Positions 19,653 through 49,037 of a DNA stretch of 64,000 nt are shown piece after piece. The DNA lies in NCBI GenBank assembly GCA_040755395.1, contig JBFMAX010000008.1, positions 62,001 to 126,000 of the forward strand, in the 5' to 3' direction. The notes below the pieces were generated by a model. That model saw only the letters and a program-made list of their open reading frames with translations. It searched no databases and was not told the DNA's origin. This DNA comes from Nitrospirota bacterium. GTDB lineage: Bacteria; Nitrospirota; Nitrospiria; Nitrospirales; Nitrospiraceae. The first letter of the stretch is position 1, and each line of letters begins with the position of its first letter. The position numbers were made by a program, and so were the translations under genes.

Positions 19653-20593
19653 GCGTCCAAGAGGGCGAGCAAATGACGTTCGACTGAAGCGGAAAGCGCG
19701 GCAAGGTTGTACCCGCCTTCAAGGCAGGAGAGAACCCGATTGCGGCTGTGACGTCGCGCGATCGCAGCGACGATCCTGGTCAATTCGGCATAGCCCTCCT
19801 CGGTCAAGCCCATGCCGGCCAGTGGATCGTCCTTATGCGCGTCAAACCCGGCCGAGATGACGACGAAGGCCGGCTTGAACGCGTCCGCCGCGGGGACCAG
19901 CACCCGCTGAAACACGTCGAGATATTCTTGATCGCCTTCTCCCGCCGCCATGGGAACGTTGATGGTCAGGCCTTCGCCCGGCCCTTTCCCCCGCTCCGTC
20001 GCGCGGCCGGTGCCCGGATAGTGGGGATACTGGTGGGTGCTGAAGAAGAGCACCGACGGATCGTCGTAAAAACTGTGCTGCGTCCCGTTGCCGTGATGCA
20101 CATCCCAATCGACGATCAGCACGCGGCCGATTCCGTGTTTGCGCTGCAGGTAGCGGGCGGCGATTGCCACGTTGTTGAACAGACAGAACCCCATCGCCCG
20201 ATTGCTTTCCGCATGGTGCCCCGGCGGCCTGAGGGCGCAAAAGGCATGGTCCACCTGCCCCGCCATGATCGCGTCCGCCGCGGTCAGCGCCCCCCCGGCC
20301 GCCAGATAGGCGGCGGCCAGCGAGCCCGGCGACATCGAGGTGTCCGGGTCCAGAGAAGCACGACCGCTCGACGGCGCCCGTGATTTCAAACCTGACATGT
20401 AGTCGCTCGTGTGGATCTGCATGATCCATTCATCGGCGGCGCTCATCGGTTCGATGCGAACCAGTTTCTTCAGCGTGCCGGTGGACTCGAGCCGGTTCAC
20501 GATGGCCCGAAGACGTTCCGGACTTTCCGGATGTCCCGGTCCCATGTCGTGGTTGAGATAAGCCGGATGATAGACGAACCCGGTACGTCCCAT
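19649..20593 (-). CDS. Histone deacetylase-family hydrolase (AcuC/HDAC-like)
   Basis: The 314-aa protein shows the class II HDAC-like fold. Visible motifs are FVYHPAYLNHDMGPGHPE, ALRPPGHHAESNRAMGFCLF (paired catalytic His), DWDVHHGNGTQHSFY (metal Asp/His) and ISAGFDAHKDDPLAGM. Bacterial members remove acetyl or related acyl groups from proteins or small amines such as polyamines; the substrate here is unknown. It overlaps the cytochrome gene by 4 bp and is probably co-transcribed with it. Confidence 0.92.
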   Translation of the reverse strand: MGRTGFVYHPAYLNHDMGPGHPESPERLRAIVNRLESTGTLKKLVRIEPMSAADEWIMQIHTSDYMSGLKSRAPSSGRASLDPDTSMSPGSLAAAYLAAGGALTAADAIMAGQVDHAFCALRPPGHHAESNRAMGFCLFNNVAIAARYLQRKHGIGRVLIVDWDVHHGNGTQHSFYDDPSVLFFSTHQYPHYPGTGRATERGKGPGEGLTINVPMAAGEGDQEYLDVFQRVLVPAADAFKPAFVVISAGFDAHKDDPLAGMGLTEEGYAELTRIVAAIARRHSRNRVLSCLEGGYNLAALSASVERHLLALLDA

Positions 20594-42858: not shown

Positions 42859-44640
42859 TCAAGAACCAGCCGGCTGAGGAACCTGGTCCGCCTGGGCCTT
42901 CGCGCGGGCGATGTAGAGCAGCCCGTCGGCCATCGAATAGTTAAACGGCAACTCGCACACCACCTCGCTGACTTTTTCGTAGACGTATTGGTACACTCGC
43001 TCCGCCTGGTCTGGCGTCATGCCTTCCTGAACTTCATAGAAGAATCCCAAGCTCAAATCCTCGGCGGCCGGGCGCATGATCCGCCTGATCCCGTAACCGC
43101 CCGGATCGCTCATGATCGGCGCTTCCTTCTCCAAATCGAACAGGCACGGCTGGCAGGAGAAGCCGAACGAACTGTGCAGTTTTTTGTTCTCCACGATGAA
43201 ATTCATCGTTTCGAGCGCCTCCTCTTCGCGCTCGGTCGGGAACCCGACAATGATATAGCAGTGGACGGCGATGCCCAAATCCACGCAGTCGTCGGTAATG
43301 CGCCGGACGCTCTCCTGCTTGATTCCTTTCTTCATGAAATCCATGACCCGCTGATTGAAGGATTCGAGTCCAAACACGATTTTCAAGCAACCGGCGTCCC
43401 GCATCAGTGCGAGGAGATCGCGCGTGAGATTCTTTTCGAATCTCATCTCACAGGTCCACCGGACGTTCAGATTCCGGTCGATCATCTGCTGGCACAGCCG
43501 CTTGGTGGGCGACAGCGCAAAGCATTCGTCCGTGAAGAAGAAAAAGCCGGTGCCGTATCGCTGTTTGAGCCATTCCAATTCGTCGACCGTTCTCCCCGGA
43601 TCCTTCTGTCTGAAGTTCTGATGATCGAGAGTCAGTGCGCAGAACGCACAATCCTTGTAGTAGCATCCGCGGGAAAACTGGACCGGCAGCACCGGTTCCG
43701 GCGACAGATAGCGGCCGAGAGGGAACCCGTCGTAGTTGGGAGCCGGCAACTGGTTGATGTTTTCTGAATAGAAAGGCTGGTTGACCGTGATCTTGCCGTT
43801 CTGCCGGTAAATCAGATTAGGCACCTTGCTGAAGTCCCGCTTCCCCTCCAACTGATTGACCAATTCAAGGAGGGCCGTTTCACCTTCGAACACCACGAAG
43901 TCGTCGGTGAGATCGAAAAGCCCGGGACACCGCCGCAGGTTGTCGACGAGGCGTGTAAAGATGCTGCCTCCGATTGTCAGGTGAATATCCGGATTGGCCT
44001 CCTTGATCAGACGACAAAGAGTCAGACCGGGCACGATTTGAGACGTGGCCGTAATGGACACTCCGACTAGGTCCGGCTGGTCACCAAGAATCGACGGCAG
44101 GCTCTTCTCACGGAACAGGCTAATGTAAGGATTCTGCTCTTCGTCGCGGATCGCTTTGAGCAGATCCTTCGAGGAATAGATCGAATAGGAGCTAAACTGG
44201 TTGTCGACGACTGTGATGCGCGTCGGGAAATAGAGCGTCGAGAGCAATTCGAGCCACTTATCGATCAGGAAAAGACTGTCGCGGTACTGATCGAGATCGT
44301 AAAATTCTTCTCCTCGTAACGTCTCCTTGGCCAGATCAATGCGATCGATCAAATACGGGAATCGCTCGAGGGATTCCACCACCCGAGCATAATGCTCCGC
44401 ACTCGACGGACCGGTCTCTCCCCTCCGCTCTCGCTCGAGGTCTCTGACCTTGTCCACCAAATGCTGGTAAATCTCTTCGCCATAGGTTCGTGTCAGCATG
44501 ACATCGAGCAGTTCGATACCCAAGTCGCGCTGCCCAACGTTCCTGATTCCGGCTTGCGAGAGAAATCCTGTGAGGGACGGCAAGCTCAGGTAAGGTTGAG
44601 ACGGATGCCAAGTCGGCGGGAACAACAACGAGATCTTCAT
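42859..44640 (-). CDS. B12-binding-type radical SAM protein
   Basis: The 593-aa protein starts with a cobalamin-binding-like region (residues about 1-260, including LVGVSITATSQIVPGLTL and IHLTIGGSIFTRLV). The radical SAM domain follows, with its cluster motif at Cys326, Cys331 and Cys334 (SRGCYYKDCAFC) and downstream RWTCEMRFEKNL and KIVFGLESFNQRVMDFMKKG. The substrate is unknown. Location among redox-maturation genes suggests a cofactor or peptide modification relevant to that system, but this is inference. Confidence 0.88.
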   Translation of the reverse strand: MKISLLFPPTWHPSQPYLSLPSLTGFLSQAGIRNVGQRDLGIELLDVMLTRTYGEEIYQHLVDKVRDLERERRGETGPSSAEHYARVVESLERFPYLIDRIDLAKETLRGEEFYDLDQYRDSLFLIDKWLELLSTLYFPTRITVVDNQFSSYSIYSSKDLLKAIRDEEQNPYISLFREKSLPSILGDQPDLVGVSITATSQIVPGLTLCRLIKEANPDIHLTIGGSIFTRLVDNLRRCPGLFDLTDDFVVFEGETALLELVNQLEGKRDFSKVPNLIYRQNGKITVNQPFYSENINQLPAPNYDGFPLGRYLSPEPVLPVQFSRGCYYKDCAFCALTLDHQNFRQKDPGRTVDELEWLKQRYGTGFFFFTDECFALSPTKRLCQQMIDRNLNVRWTCEMRFEKNLTRDLLALMRDAGCLKIVFGLESFNQRVMDFMKKGIKQESVRRITDDCVDLGIAVHCYIIVGFPTEREEEALETMNFIVENKKLHSSFGFSCQPCLFDLEKEAPIMSDPGGYGIRRIMRPAAEDLSLGFFYEVQEGMTPDQAERVYQYVYEKVSEVVCELPFNYSMADGLLYIARAKAQADQVPQPAGS

Positions 44641-44844: not shown

Positions 44845-44901
44845 AGAGAAGCCCCGAACCGCCTCCCGTCATCATTCGACGGGGCGGCTCGGGGCTTCTC
44901 T
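44845..44901 (-). terminator. Intrinsic terminator after the NxrC-like gene
   Basis: A long stem pairs AGAGAAGCCCCGA/TCGGGGCTTCTCT-type arms (44845-44870 with 44878-44901, small bulge) around a 7-nt loop. It is followed on the minus strand by seven T residues (44839-44845). It lies 80 bp downstream of the stop at 44981. Confidence 0.8.
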
Positions 44902-44980: not shown

Positions 44981-45934
44981 TCACGGAAGCTTCAGCGTGA
45001 ACCACGTGGAGATGCCTTTCATGCCGTTTCTCTCCACGTTGGTGCCGTCCCAAACCGCAAACGCCACAGGCACGGACATACCGGGCTTGAACTGCACATC
45101 GTTCGGATCGCTGGTCTCCAAGGCCCGCTTGACGACGATGCGCCAGGTCGGACCCGTGCAGCATCCTCCCTTCACGGAACCGGCCGGTTCCCACACGCCA
45201 TTACCGATTACGTCCTGGTGCGCCTGCGTGGTGAGCGTGCTGAACCCGTTGGCGTTGAGATCTTCCACGGAGCTCACGCGCAACGTCGGATCCGACAAGA
45301 TATTCCCAGACCAGATACCAGGATTAAAGGGGCCGAGGCTCCGACCGATCCGGTCCGGATAGGTGACACCGCCAGCGGGCTCTTCGAAATAATAATCCCA
45401 GAAGATACCGGGATACTGATCATCCACGTCCCAAATCCCGGCACTATCCTTGCCCAAGTCCTTTTGCCACTCCGCATTCCACCGCCAAATGTTCACGGTC
45501 CCACCCGACTGCCCCATGCACTGGAACGGAGGTGCGCCGGACGTGTTCACCGGGAACTGAATCGCCGCTTGATCCCTGAAGTCCTGGGGCCCGATCGTAG
45601 TATCGTTCTTGGTCTGGTCGGCCCAATCGAGGCGGAAACCGATTTCTTTGCCGTTGGTCACGGCTTTGACGAACACCGACTTGACCGAGATGTTCGGGTG
45701 CATCGGAGTGGTAATCGTCTGCCCACTCAGGGGCACGACGACACCCGGCACACCTTCCCAGATCGGATTGGCACCGTCCATGGGAATGGGGCCTTTGATG
45801 GCCTTCACTGGGATCGTGACCGGCTGGCTGACCGCCAGCGGCACTTGCCCAATCGTCAGCATTACGCCAACAACCAGGGCAGAGAGAAGAATGCCAAACA
45901 CCAAACGCTTGTTGCGTGTCTGCACCAGTCTCAT
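44981..45934 (-). CDS. NxrC-like nitrite oxidoreductase gamma-subunit candidate
   Basis: ATG 45934 follows AGAGGAGGGC. The 317-aa protein has a Sec-type signal/anchor (residues 10-37). The EB_dh/NxrC domain then follows: VVVPLSGQTITTPMHP, GFRLDWADQTKND, a FQCMGQSGGTVNIWRW block with Met140 as candidate axial haem ligand, VSSVEDLNANGFSTLTT and FAVWDGTNVERNGMK. This family supplies the haem-b subunit of type II molybdenum enzymes such as nitrite oxidoreductase. Its own terminator follows, and the TorD chaperone gene lies directly upstream. Confidence 0.87.
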   Translation of the reverse strand: MRLVQTRNKRLVFGILLSALVVGVMLTIGQVPLAVSQPVTIPVKAIKGPIPMDGANPIWEGVPGVVVPLSGQTITTPMHPNISVKSVFVKAVTNGKEIGFRLDWADQTKNDTTIGPQDFRDQAAIQFPVNTSGAPPFQCMGQSGGTVNIWRWNAEWQKDLGKDSAGIWDVDDQYPGIFWDYYFEEPAGGVTYPDRIGRSLGPFNPGIWSGNILSDPTLRVSSVEDLNANGFSTLTTQAHQDVIGNGVWEPAGSVKGGCCTGPTWRIVVKRALETSDPNDVQFKPGMSVPVAFAVWDGTNVERNGMKGISTWFTLKLP

Positions 45935-46037: not shown

Positions 46038-47003
46038 TTATGCTGTTCCAACCGGCCCGCTCTCCTCCTTTTTCTCTTCCTTTTCCAAAAACGTCTGGGC
46101 ACCAACCTCGTTGAGCAACATGTTCAACTCATTTCCCTGATCCTGTGCGCCACACTCGTACGTTTGACCTTCAGGAGCGCTGAAGGTCGCAGGACGGTAA
46201 TCGGTTTCAGAATACGGCTGTGGATTCACGCTAAGAAAGGCCACTTCGAAGTCCATCCAATCGCTCGTGACGTCTGCCATCAATTTGAAGAATCCCGAAT
46301 CGGCCTTCCTGGCCAACATCCGACAGAAAAGTGGGACCCAACGACCGATATGATTCTTGACGAACTTCTTTTGGGCATCGACGACTATCTGGGTTTTATC
46401 CGCTCCGTCGTGGCAACGGGAGTAACTCTCCTTGTACGCCAAAAAGTGCATAAACTCCAGCTCGACGCTCAGATGGTCGAGCCGTTCATGGATATCCCGC
46501 GAGAGTTCGACGCCGAAGGCTTTGTAGAAGCCGGCGATATCTCCCATGACATGAGACTGCGCAAACACGTGATCATTGCCGAACAGGGTTTCGTAGGGAG
46601 GACAATCTAGAGTGATGACATTACTGAACACTCGACGATGCTCACTTTGCAGATCACCGAGTTGCCAGTTGACGCATTCCGACGCAACCCACTTCTCGAT
46701 CAAGTCGAAGTGCTTGAACAGTGCCGCAATCTTCTGCTTCGCACGCTCTCCCCCGACTCCGTCTAGCGCCGAGCGAAGGCTCTCCAATGCGGATCGACCG
46801 TCCTCCACAAATTCCCCGCTCTGGAGGTAATCAAGAAACTCATCGTCTTCCGGATACAACATGCTCCAGGAGATCAGGAGATAAATCTTGCTGCGGTTCA
46901 ATGCCCGTTCGACTGCGGGAGTATCTTTCACTACTTCCGTTCTGGGAATGACCGCCGTAGAACCTTCCGACTGCTTAACTTGAGATTGCTTTGCCGTCAT
47001 CAA
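46038..47003 (-). CDS. TorD/DmsD-type molybdoenzyme chaperone
   Basis: The 321-aa all-helical protein matches the TorD family: an N-terminal YLLISWSMLYPEDDEFLDYL helix, then VNWQLGDLQSEHRRVFSN, DCPPYETLFG, VMGDIAGFYKAFGVEL and RLDHLSVELEFMHFLAYKE. These chaperones hold the molybdenum subunit until cofactor insertion and Tat export. It carries an unusual C-terminal extension past residue 265 with a Cys and an acidic Lys/Glu tail. Upstream of the NxrC-like gene, so a role in maturing a nitrite oxidoreductase is the natural reading. Confidence 0.88.
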   Translation of the reverse strand: MMTAKQSQVKQSEGSTAVIPRTEVVKDTPAVERALNRSKIYLLISWSMLYPEDDEFLDYLQSGEFVEDGRSALESLRSALDGVGGERAKQKIAALFKHFDLIEKWVASECVNWQLGDLQSEHRRVFSNVITLDCPPYETLFGNDHVFAQSHVMGDIAGFYKAFGVELSRDIHERLDHLSVELEFMHFLAYKESYSRCHDGADKTQIVVDAQKKFVKNHIGRWVPLFCRMLARKADSGFFKLMADVTSDWMDFEVAFLSVNPQPYSETDYRPATFSAPEGQTYECGAQDQGNELNMLLNEVGAQTFLEKEEKKEESGPVGTA

Positions 47004-47224: not shown

Positions 47225-47839
47225 CTATTCTAACCCCGCGTGAGAACGGCCCTTTGTGAGCCATCGCCCGGGGGAAACCTTGATAGCAATCCTGTCGTTG
47301 ACGGTCTTACACACGGACTCGCAAATCCCGCAACCAACGCACCGGTCGATCGTGACCATAAGACGCATCGACTCGAAGTCCATTTCCACCGCGCCCATCG
47401 GGCACTTTGAGACACAGGCGTGACACCCTTGTCCCGCAGTACAATCACGGTGCGACACCACAGCCTGCCCCATCCTGACCTCTTCCCGTCTTGCCACTGG
47501 CAACAAGGCATCCGTCGCACAGGCAGCGATGCAGGGAAAATCCTCGCATAAGTAGCAGGGGACTTGATCGGGGAAGACGACGGGCGTGCCGTCCCGTTGG
47601 TCGAACCCGATGCTCCCATAGGGACAGACTTTGGCGCAGTCACCGCAACGCGTGCAGCGTTCGAGAAAGAGGGCCTCCTCCACGGCTCCCGGCGGTCTCA
47701 GCCAATCCGTTCGCGGAGGAGTCTCGGCTTTTTCCCGAGGTGCCTCTTTGTGTTTCACGAACTCATGCGCGGCCTTGGCGACGGAAATCACGGAATCTTT
47801 CAAGAACTGCCGTCGACCGTACTGCGGTTCAGAGGCCAT
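47225..47839 (-). CDS. NapG/MauM-like 4x[4Fe-4S] ferredoxin
   Basis: The 204-aa protein has a twin-arginine-like start (YGRRQFLKDS) but only a weak hydrophobic stretch after it, so export is uncertain. Four Cys clusters suit four [4Fe-4S] centres: CTRCGDCAKVCP, CYLCEDFPCIAAC, CTAGQGCHACVSKCP and CVGCGICESVC. NapG-type proteins move electrons between quinols and periplasmic molybdoenzymes. It ends 221 bp before the TorD gene start and begins 25 bp after the next gene's stop. Confidence 0.87.
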   Translation of the reverse strand: MASEPQYGRRQFLKDSVISVAKAAHEFVKHKEAPREKAETPPRTDWLRPPGAVEEALFLERCTRCGDCAKVCPYGSIGFDQRDGTPVVFPDQVPCYLCEDFPCIAACATDALLPVARREEVRMGQAVVSHRDCTAGQGCHACVSKCPMGAVEMDFESMRLMVTIDRCVGCGICESVCKTVNDRIAIKVSPGRWLTKGRSHAGLE

Positions 47840-47864: not shown

Positions 47865-48866
47865 TTATCCCATTACCCCATCGGCGCGGAGCTTGTACAC
47901 TTCGACGCAGCGATCGCAGGCGCCGAATTCCGTATCCCAACCCGGATGATTCTCGCGGATATAGTCCAAGACATACTTCTCCACTTTATTCTCCAAGTCT
48001 TCGACCCAGGAATACGTCGGGAAGCGGCAGAGCGGGCAGGGGAACCCGGGCATCAGCATGAGCTTGTTTTGCGTTTCCGGCACCTCTCCGCCCTCAACTT
48101 CGACTGCGCGGTCCATCACACGCAACGTATCGGTGGCCATTTCCACCAACTCGGAATGGGTGAAGAATTGCGTCTGCCACAAGCCTTCGAACACCGACTT
48201 GAGCTGAGCCGGCGGAATTTTTCGATACCACGAGCGGAATTCTTTATACCGGTCTTCCTTAGCGAGCATCGGTTCTTTGCCCGAGGCCTCGAGGCGGCTG
48301 TCAATGCTCAAACACCACAGAACCCGGTAGCGATGAAGGATCAGCGTTTCCTCACCGGGGTTCTGCCCGACTTTGGTGTCCGGATCGTAATTGAATGCCG
48401 GATCCAGCATATCGGAGATGTGAGTCAATTCGTGTCGGCAATAGCGGGTCAGCGCGGGATCATAGAATCGACGGGGGATGAGCTTGATGCCGACGCCCTT
48501 AAGGCCCTTCTCCTCAAACTGCTTGGCCAATTCGTGCTCGACGGAACCCCATTTTCTCAGGATGTCGACCCCTTCCTGATCTTCCTTCAGCACGCCTTTG
48601 ACCAGGACAATGCCGATTTTCTTCTTCAACTCCGGGAACTCGTCGAACGCGTCGCGAATAATATCCGAAAACCCCCAAATGCCGAAGAGATATTGATAGA
48701 GTTTCTTGAACTCCGGTTCCCGGTCTTCGAGTGAAAATTTCTCGTAGATCGGGTCGGCAAGCTCGTGAAACTCCTTATAGTAGGTGGGATCGCCTTCTCG
48801 CTCGGTCTTTTCAATGAACGAGTCGATCACTTCCTGGAGCAGGGCAGGCTGAAATCGGATTTCCAT
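47865..48866 (-). CDS. Unrecognised protein with HELTH motif and two CxxC pairs
   Basis: The 333-aa protein begins at ATG 48866 after GAGGTATGCG and is first in the block. It has a largely helical N-terminal half and a CRHELTHISDMLD motif (His145, Glu146, His149, possibly Asp152), which matches the HExxH zinc-metallopeptidase pattern. A C-terminal part follows with CPLC (277-280) and CDRC (317-320) that could form a zinc or Fe-S site. It lacks a signal peptide. I do not recognise the family; protease activity is a hypothesis only. Confidence 0.75.
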   Translation of the reverse strand: MEIRFQPALLQEVIDSFIEKTEREGDPTYYKEFHELADPIYEKFSLEDREPEFKKLYQYLFGIWGFSDIIRDAFDEFPELKKKIGIVLVKGVLKEDQEGVDILRKWGSVEHELAKQFEEKGLKGVGIKLIPRRFYDPALTRYCRHELTHISDMLDPAFNYDPDTKVGQNPGEETLILHRYRVLWCLSIDSRLEASGKEPMLAKEDRYKEFRSWYRKIPPAQLKSVFEGLWQTQFFTHSELVEMATDTLRVMDRAVEVEGGEVPETQNKLMLMPGFPCPLCRFPTYSWVEDLENKVEKYVLDYIRENHPGWDTEFGACDRCVEVYKLRADGVMG

Positions 48867-49007
48867 CGCATACCTCGGCGGCTAGAGCTGAATGAACCAC
48901 GTCAAATGCGGAATCTCCTGAAGATCCGGATTCCTTACGAAGCCAGGTTATCGGATCGCTTGACTTGACCGTGTGGCATCTCTTACCATCTTCTCGGCAG
49001 AGTTGGA

Positions 49008-49037
49008 ATTATACTCGCCCCGAAAACCGTTTTGCAA
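49008..49037 (-). promoter_or_regulatory. Near-consensus sigma70 promoter for the nitrite-oxidation block
   Basis: A minus-strand -10 TATAAT (49008-49013), a perfect match, lies 18 bp from a -35 TTGCAA (49032-49037). The predicted start near 49001 leaves a 5' leader of about 135 nt before the HELTH-protein gene. Confidence 0.7.

Follow-up and report, generated by a model that had tools for sequence, protein, structure and literature searches.

An HExxH protein with a C-terminal four-Cys module in the NXR accessory cluster of Nitrospirales: anatomy and a likely role in NXR maturation

Nitrite oxidoreductase (NXR) makes almost all biological nitrate. To our knowledge, its maturation factors apart from TorD are unnamed. 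NxrC and TorD have been named as genes of the NXR system (PMC6606698), as has a ferredoxin (PMC8115096). The cluster NITMOv2_3614-3631 is listed among the genes diagnostic for nitrite oxidation in Nitrospirales and includes "several proteins of unknown function" (PMC12342949). "One putative zinc finger" protein, given in the text without a locus, is among the genes common to the NXR clusters of Nitrospina, Nitrospira and Kuenenia (PMC3578206), and the Kuenenia cluster kustd1699-1713 has unnamed proteins, for example kustd1701 and kustd1713 (PMC6423088). Here we describe an HExxH protein encoded in a 64,000-nucleotide stretch of DNA from a Nitrospirota bacterium (the window). Judging from its gene position rather than a locus tag, it should be one of the unknowns of the diagnostic cluster, and it may also be the zinc finger protein of the earlier comparison. 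That the cluster is diagnostic of nitrite oxidation was already known (PMC12342949); what is added here is the anatomy of the HExxH protein, through which one "protein of unknown function" becomes a testable candidate for NXR maturation.

Several described systems resemble this protein in part. Zincin and gluzincin metallopeptidases (4l7a, M1, M9, SprT-like) likewise carry HExxH on a helix following a beta strand, with an invariant Glu opening the next helix 23-24 residues past the second His, and show a weak structural resemblance to it (Z up to 4.7). In contrast to these enzymes, the HExxH protein has no family match above threshold, and it possesses a large N-terminal helical part and a fused four-Cys module. 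SprT-like proteases with a C-terminal zinc ribbon also combine an HExxH domain with C-terminal CxxC...CxxC, but in the HExxH protein 36 residues, including a helix, separate the CxxC pairs, which form part of another, mobile module. The RiPP alpha-ketoglutarate HExxH oxygenases (ChlB-HExxH, PflC, BpmH) place the motif in a zincin-like fold as well, whereas the HExxH protein has no sequence match to them and sits in an NXR maturation context in which no precursor peptide was seen. Maturation factors of Mo enzymes of the NarJ/TorD and NapF type share with it the genomic context, the cytoplasmic location and the presumed action before Tat export, yet they differ in fold and metal motif and are not homologous. 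Finally, the N-terminal module of certain DUF1003 proteins (CPxC...P-x-W...C-x2-C) aligns with the C-terminus of the HExxH protein, although it is fused there to a membrane domain and here to an HExxH domain.

Gene, neighbourhood and distribution

The HExxH gene (47865..48866, minus strand) encodes 333 aa from an ATG start codon, and the ORF confirms both the extent given in the first-pass annotation and the HELTH motif at residues 145-149 (48420..48434, minus strand). Inspection of the N-terminus (MEIRFQPALLQEVIDSF...) revealed no hydrophobic stretch, in agreement with the earlier statement that a signal peptide is absent. A conserved sigma-70-like promoter, TTGCAA-18-TATAAT (49008..49037, minus strand; 10/12 matches to consensus), lies ~140 bp 5' of the gene, and a sigma-70-like site occurs at similar distance in nearly all inspected relatives. 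The gene is the first behind this promoter and the next gene upstream, a WD40-repeat gene (from about 49032), is divergent, which bears out the promoter-proximal position proposed before. A promoter-like site for the WD40 gene, TTGACT-18-TACCAT (48960-48989, plus strand), overlaps the leader of the HExxH gene, and the block AAGTCAAGC/GTAAGAGA is kept in relatives. Rfam found no RNA in the window, so no known riboswitch precedes the gene. A sigma-54-type regulator and a histidine kinase are encoded upstream.

A NapG/NapF-like cytoplasmic ferredoxin with an RR motif (47225..47839, minus strand; NCBIfam NF007012, 7e-33, under its cut-off) begins 25 bp downstream of the HExxH gene. It is followed by a TorD/NarJ-type chaperone (46038..47003, minus strand; PF02613 1.2e-19, TIGR03482 1.9e-22), whose true start may lie inside this ORF, and by NxrC, the heme-b gamma subunit of NXR (44981..45934, minus strand; DMSO reductase type II gamma, PF09459 9.1e-30, TIGR03477 1.7e-42). 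What was described as a "redox block" headed by this gene is the NXR accessory cluster. NxrC is followed by a terminator-like stem-loop with a T run (44846..44867, minus strand), so that the HExxH protein, ferredoxin, TorD and NxrC likely form one transcription unit; a second promoter-like site (47119-47091) stands before TorD. The ferredoxin lies directly 3' of the HExxH gene in 80 loci, without exception where the sequence extends that far, with TorD and NxrC behind it where the contig continues, and the order of the four genes is the same in the loci with flanks, including that of N. defluvii (L133). Downstream of NxrC, a B12-binding radical SAM gene (42859-44640, minus strand) is ~84% conserved; its product, which resembles RiPP C-methyltransferases (TIGR03975, 155.7 bits, below the cut-off of 281.85), could modify an NXR subunit. 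The window's own assembly (G000) gave no NxrA match at E<=1e-100 with the accessory cluster intact, which probably reflects a collapsed multi-copy nxrAB.

A search with profile A1 detected the HExxH protein in 137 of the 140 Nitrospirales genomes sampled from families f1-f3 and in none of three f4 genomes (0/4 in another search, which also found the gene in 34 of 41 relatives). N. defluvii NxrA served as the NXR marker for this survey, since TIGR03479 matches nearly all genomes and was dropped. Family f4 gave no NxrA match and is probably UBA2166, the only Nitrospirales family without NXR (PMC12342949). The three f1 genomes without a profile match (G204, G286, G023) all have NxrA, so that an assembly gap is the likely, not proven, cause. 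Named Nitrospira records, among them Ca. N. defluvii and N. moscoviensis, hold the closest copies, which marks the window as DNA of a Nitrospira-type genome.

Outside Nitrospirales, a single genome (G071, from another class) holds a homologue, 34-43% identical and split over two contig ends. One contig carries, in this order, an NxrB-like protein, TorD, an NxrC-like protein and the HExxH protein; the other carries a ferredoxin, a membrane protein homologous to that of the window (28% identity, E 2e-07) and a NUBPL/Mrp-type Fe-S carrier (L039, 1507-2712). Sixteen other genomes outside Nitrospirales have an NxrA-like protein and no detectable HExxH relative, indicating that the HExxH protein is not required by every NXR-like enzyme; such NxrA-like proteins (E 1e-220 to 1e-280) occur in other Nitrospirota classes, e.g. 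in G201, G342, G144 and G199. Dependence on the HExxH protein is hence tied to one NXR type or lineage. Three lines of evidence speak for an association of the protein with NXR: the operon, the phylogenetic distribution and the distant G071 cluster.

Plasmid and viral collections gave no match to the HExxH protein, and a short match in G182 looks like chance. In G236 (contig C29), the gene is present in two pieces (20170-20580 and 153046-153276) 133 kb apart, one with an in-frame TGA, and in G141 (contig C20, 178197-178894) it is without its middle, HExxH included; either misassembly or genuine gene loss would account for these broken copies. An 87% identical Nitrospira copy on a contig filed under a Bacteroidetes MAG (L077) is a probable contamination of that bin.

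Conservation and predicted fold

Conservation of H145, E146 and H149 had been set beforehand as a test of the metal-site proposal. In a survey of 107 distinct full-length proteins (128 copies) and the G071 outlier, all three are invariant and kept in G071, together with D152, P170, E172, E173, R179, R181, W184, D189, S190 and R191. The same holds for C277, C280, C317 and C320. Identity to G071 peaks at 55% in the stretch of HExxH and the Glu helix, reaches 46% in the Cys module and falls to its minimum, 14%, in the linker. The HExxH protein and NxrC both have a median identity to the window of 87.3%, compared with 77.1% for TorD and 66.9% for the ferredoxin. The protein is thus conserved like an NXR subunit, more than TorD, and tracks the NXR-bearing Nitrospirales families. 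Comparison with N. moscoviensis gave dN 0.082 against dS 1.76 (dN/dS 0.047, omega being given only where computable as dS is saturated for most pairs), showing that the ORF is a genuine gene and that purifying selection on it is strong. These results offer definite residues for mutation: H145, E146, H149, E172/E173 and C277/C280/C317/C320.

Searches of Pfam, NCBIfam, PHROGs and PDB sequences assigned the HExxH protein to no family, in line with the first-pass annotation, which had placed it in none. SprT-like (PF10263) gave no match, its best E being 0.026 in 1 of 11 relatives, and the NCBIfam peptide-modification HExxH families gave none at E<=1, with only a chance match to EutH. The full-length model reached a pLDDT of 84.0 and a pTM of 0.70, and that of residues 1-258 alone 83.7 and 0.76. 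The predicted order of elements is zincin-like: beta84-91, beta99-102, alpha108-119, beta123-129, a helix at 139-154 that bears H145, E146 and H149, and a helix at 170-194 starting PGEE. E172 and E173 (48348..48353, minus strand) open this last helix and, by analogy with gluzincins, are candidates for the third metal ligand.

Structure comparison points the same way, if weakly. Foldseek returned nothing at E<=0.001 with the full-length and catalytic-part models, and against viral structures no more than weak peptidase-like names. In VIA-align, the catalytic part reaches Z>=4 against just three rows: 4l7a (Z 4.7 over 150 aligned residues, rmsd 4.5), 8s5f (Z 4.6 over 154, rmsd 4.9) and YbeY 7y7o (Z 4.0 over 111, rmsd 4.5). 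All of them are HExxH/zincin-type folds, at Z values that a common arrangement can also produce. M1, Ste24, M9 and M61 enzymes score below Z 4, among unrelated rows, and the full-length model matches the SPRTN structure 6mdx at Z 4.0 over 99 residues, with ties. A zincin-like core is probable, because zincins recur among the structural matches. The profile and structure-prediction searches that had been proposed thus delivered no sequence family, and they did place zincin-type folds at the top, with weak scores (Z 4.0-4.7).

Possible roles in NXR maturation

A role of the HExxH protein in NXR maturation is likely. The explanation that we favour, at roughly even odds, makes the protein a dedicated maturation factor of periplasmic-type NXR: a cytoplasmic metalloprotein whose HExxH domain is zincin-like, probably gluzincin-like, and whose C-terminus forms a four-Cys zinc module. 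Its metal, substrate and catalysis are inferred: the HExxH domain would bind one Zn through H145, H149 and either E172 or E173, E146 would serve as general base, and the C-terminal module would hold a second, structural Zn and dock the protein, either on a subunit of NXR or on a partner. It would act before Tat export, on NxrA/NxrB, alongside the NapF/NapG-like ferredoxin, which may provide Fe-S supply or repair, and TorD, which would load the Mo cofactor. The most likely action would be proteolytic trimming or the clearance of misassembled subunits. Peptidase chemistry is putative; catalysis is an expectation from the invariant E146 and the predicted fold, and no processing site was identified in the NXR subunits. 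The first-pass annotation had envisaged a cytoplasmic metal protein serving an oxidoreductase. The service to NXR fits the adjacency of ferredoxin and TorD, the nearby NxrC, the tracking of NXR-bearing families and the G071 cluster, and the data accommodate cleaving, metal loading and scaffolding alike.

The strongest rival is a non-catalytic role, which we consider possible but less probable. Here the metal would be structural or delivered, and the protein would be an assembly scaffold, either an NXR-specific chaperone or a metal or Fe-S hand-over factor, with no peptidase activity. The protein is conserved along its entire length to the same degree as NxrC, as would fit a tight protein partner, the adjoining genes encode a ferredoxin and the TorD chaperone (in G071 also the NUBPL/Mrp Fe-S carrier), there is no obvious cleavage substrate, and not every protein with a YbeY-like or other HExxH-type fold is a protease. 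However, every copy retains the general-base Glu146, which a structural site alone would not need.

If the protein is an enzyme, a further consequence is conceivable, which we hold only tentatively: trimming or side-chain oxidation of NXR subunits before export would be an undescribed maturation step, and, if true, one of nature's main nitrate-forming enzyme. In a further rival reading, the protein would be an Fe(II)/2-oxoglutarate-dependent oxygenase of the HExxH kind, comparable to ChlB-HExxH of a RiPP pathway, and would hydroxylate or oxidatively clip an NXR subunit. Such RiPP enzymes adopt a zincin-like fold and for long carried peptidase annotations (PMC12636437), and the ChlB HExxH domain (8s5f) is a tied best structural match of the catalytic part; the downstream radical SAM gene with its resemblance to RiPP C-methyltransferases would also fit. 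We nevertheless regard this oxygenase as improbable. The fold match it draws on is a single weak one, equalled by the putative metallopeptidase 4l7a, and the peptide-modification HExxH families gave no match. Moreover, a terminator-like site separates the NxrC unit from the radical SAM gene, which in G071 does not lie between the ferredoxin and the membrane protein.

The four-Cys module

The two C-terminal CxxC pairs noted in the first-pass annotation are present (CPLC at 277-280 and CDRC at 317-320), but the "double CxxC" is a single mobile module of ~55 aa with four Cys (CPLC...GACDRC, codons 273-328; 47883..48050, minus strand), presumably zinc-binding. In alignment A4 its shared pattern reads CPxC, ~28 residues, P/G-x-W and C-x2-C. 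Profile matches at E 2e-6 to 8e-6 per genome led to copies of the module apart from the HExxH domain: three stand-alone ORFs (L132, L130 and L143, 59-71 aa), one tandem pair (L131) and the N-termini of two DUF1003 proteins (PF06210, 7.1e-43 and 1.9e-41). The modules of the DUF1003 proteins match the C-terminus of the HExxH protein at E 1.4e-8 and 8.8e-8 in a search with A4, in which A4's own rows score high by construction and the new rows are G151, G051 and G055. The module is thereby identified as common to HExxH and DUF1003 proteins; its sequence passed the cut-off of no Pfam or NCBIfam model. Two redox-active, thioredoxin-like CxxC pairs were considered and rejected, as the region aligns with the stand-alone modules. 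In G055, a module encoded 12 kb away from the alpha subunit of a type II Mo enzyme proved to be part of a DUF1003 protein.

The zinc-finger-like C-terminus and the upstream sigma-54-type regulator and histidine kinase might suggest a regulator that tunes NXR accessory gene expression, its module binding either nucleic acid or a two-component partner, but this is very unlikely, as the module elsewhere stands alone or is fused to a DUF1003 membrane domain, no DNA-binding domain was recognised, and the HExxH gene is probably co-transcribed with maturation genes.

Two of the stand-alone modules, from different genera, have a small DUF2892-like membrane protein (MKKN[VI]G..ER..R...G) directly ahead of them: L130 (module 2147-2362, membrane protein 2396-2587, both minus strand) and L143 (2574-2780 and 2364-2555, both plus strand). 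This arrangement suggests that the stand-alone module and the DUF2892-like protein form a functional pair.
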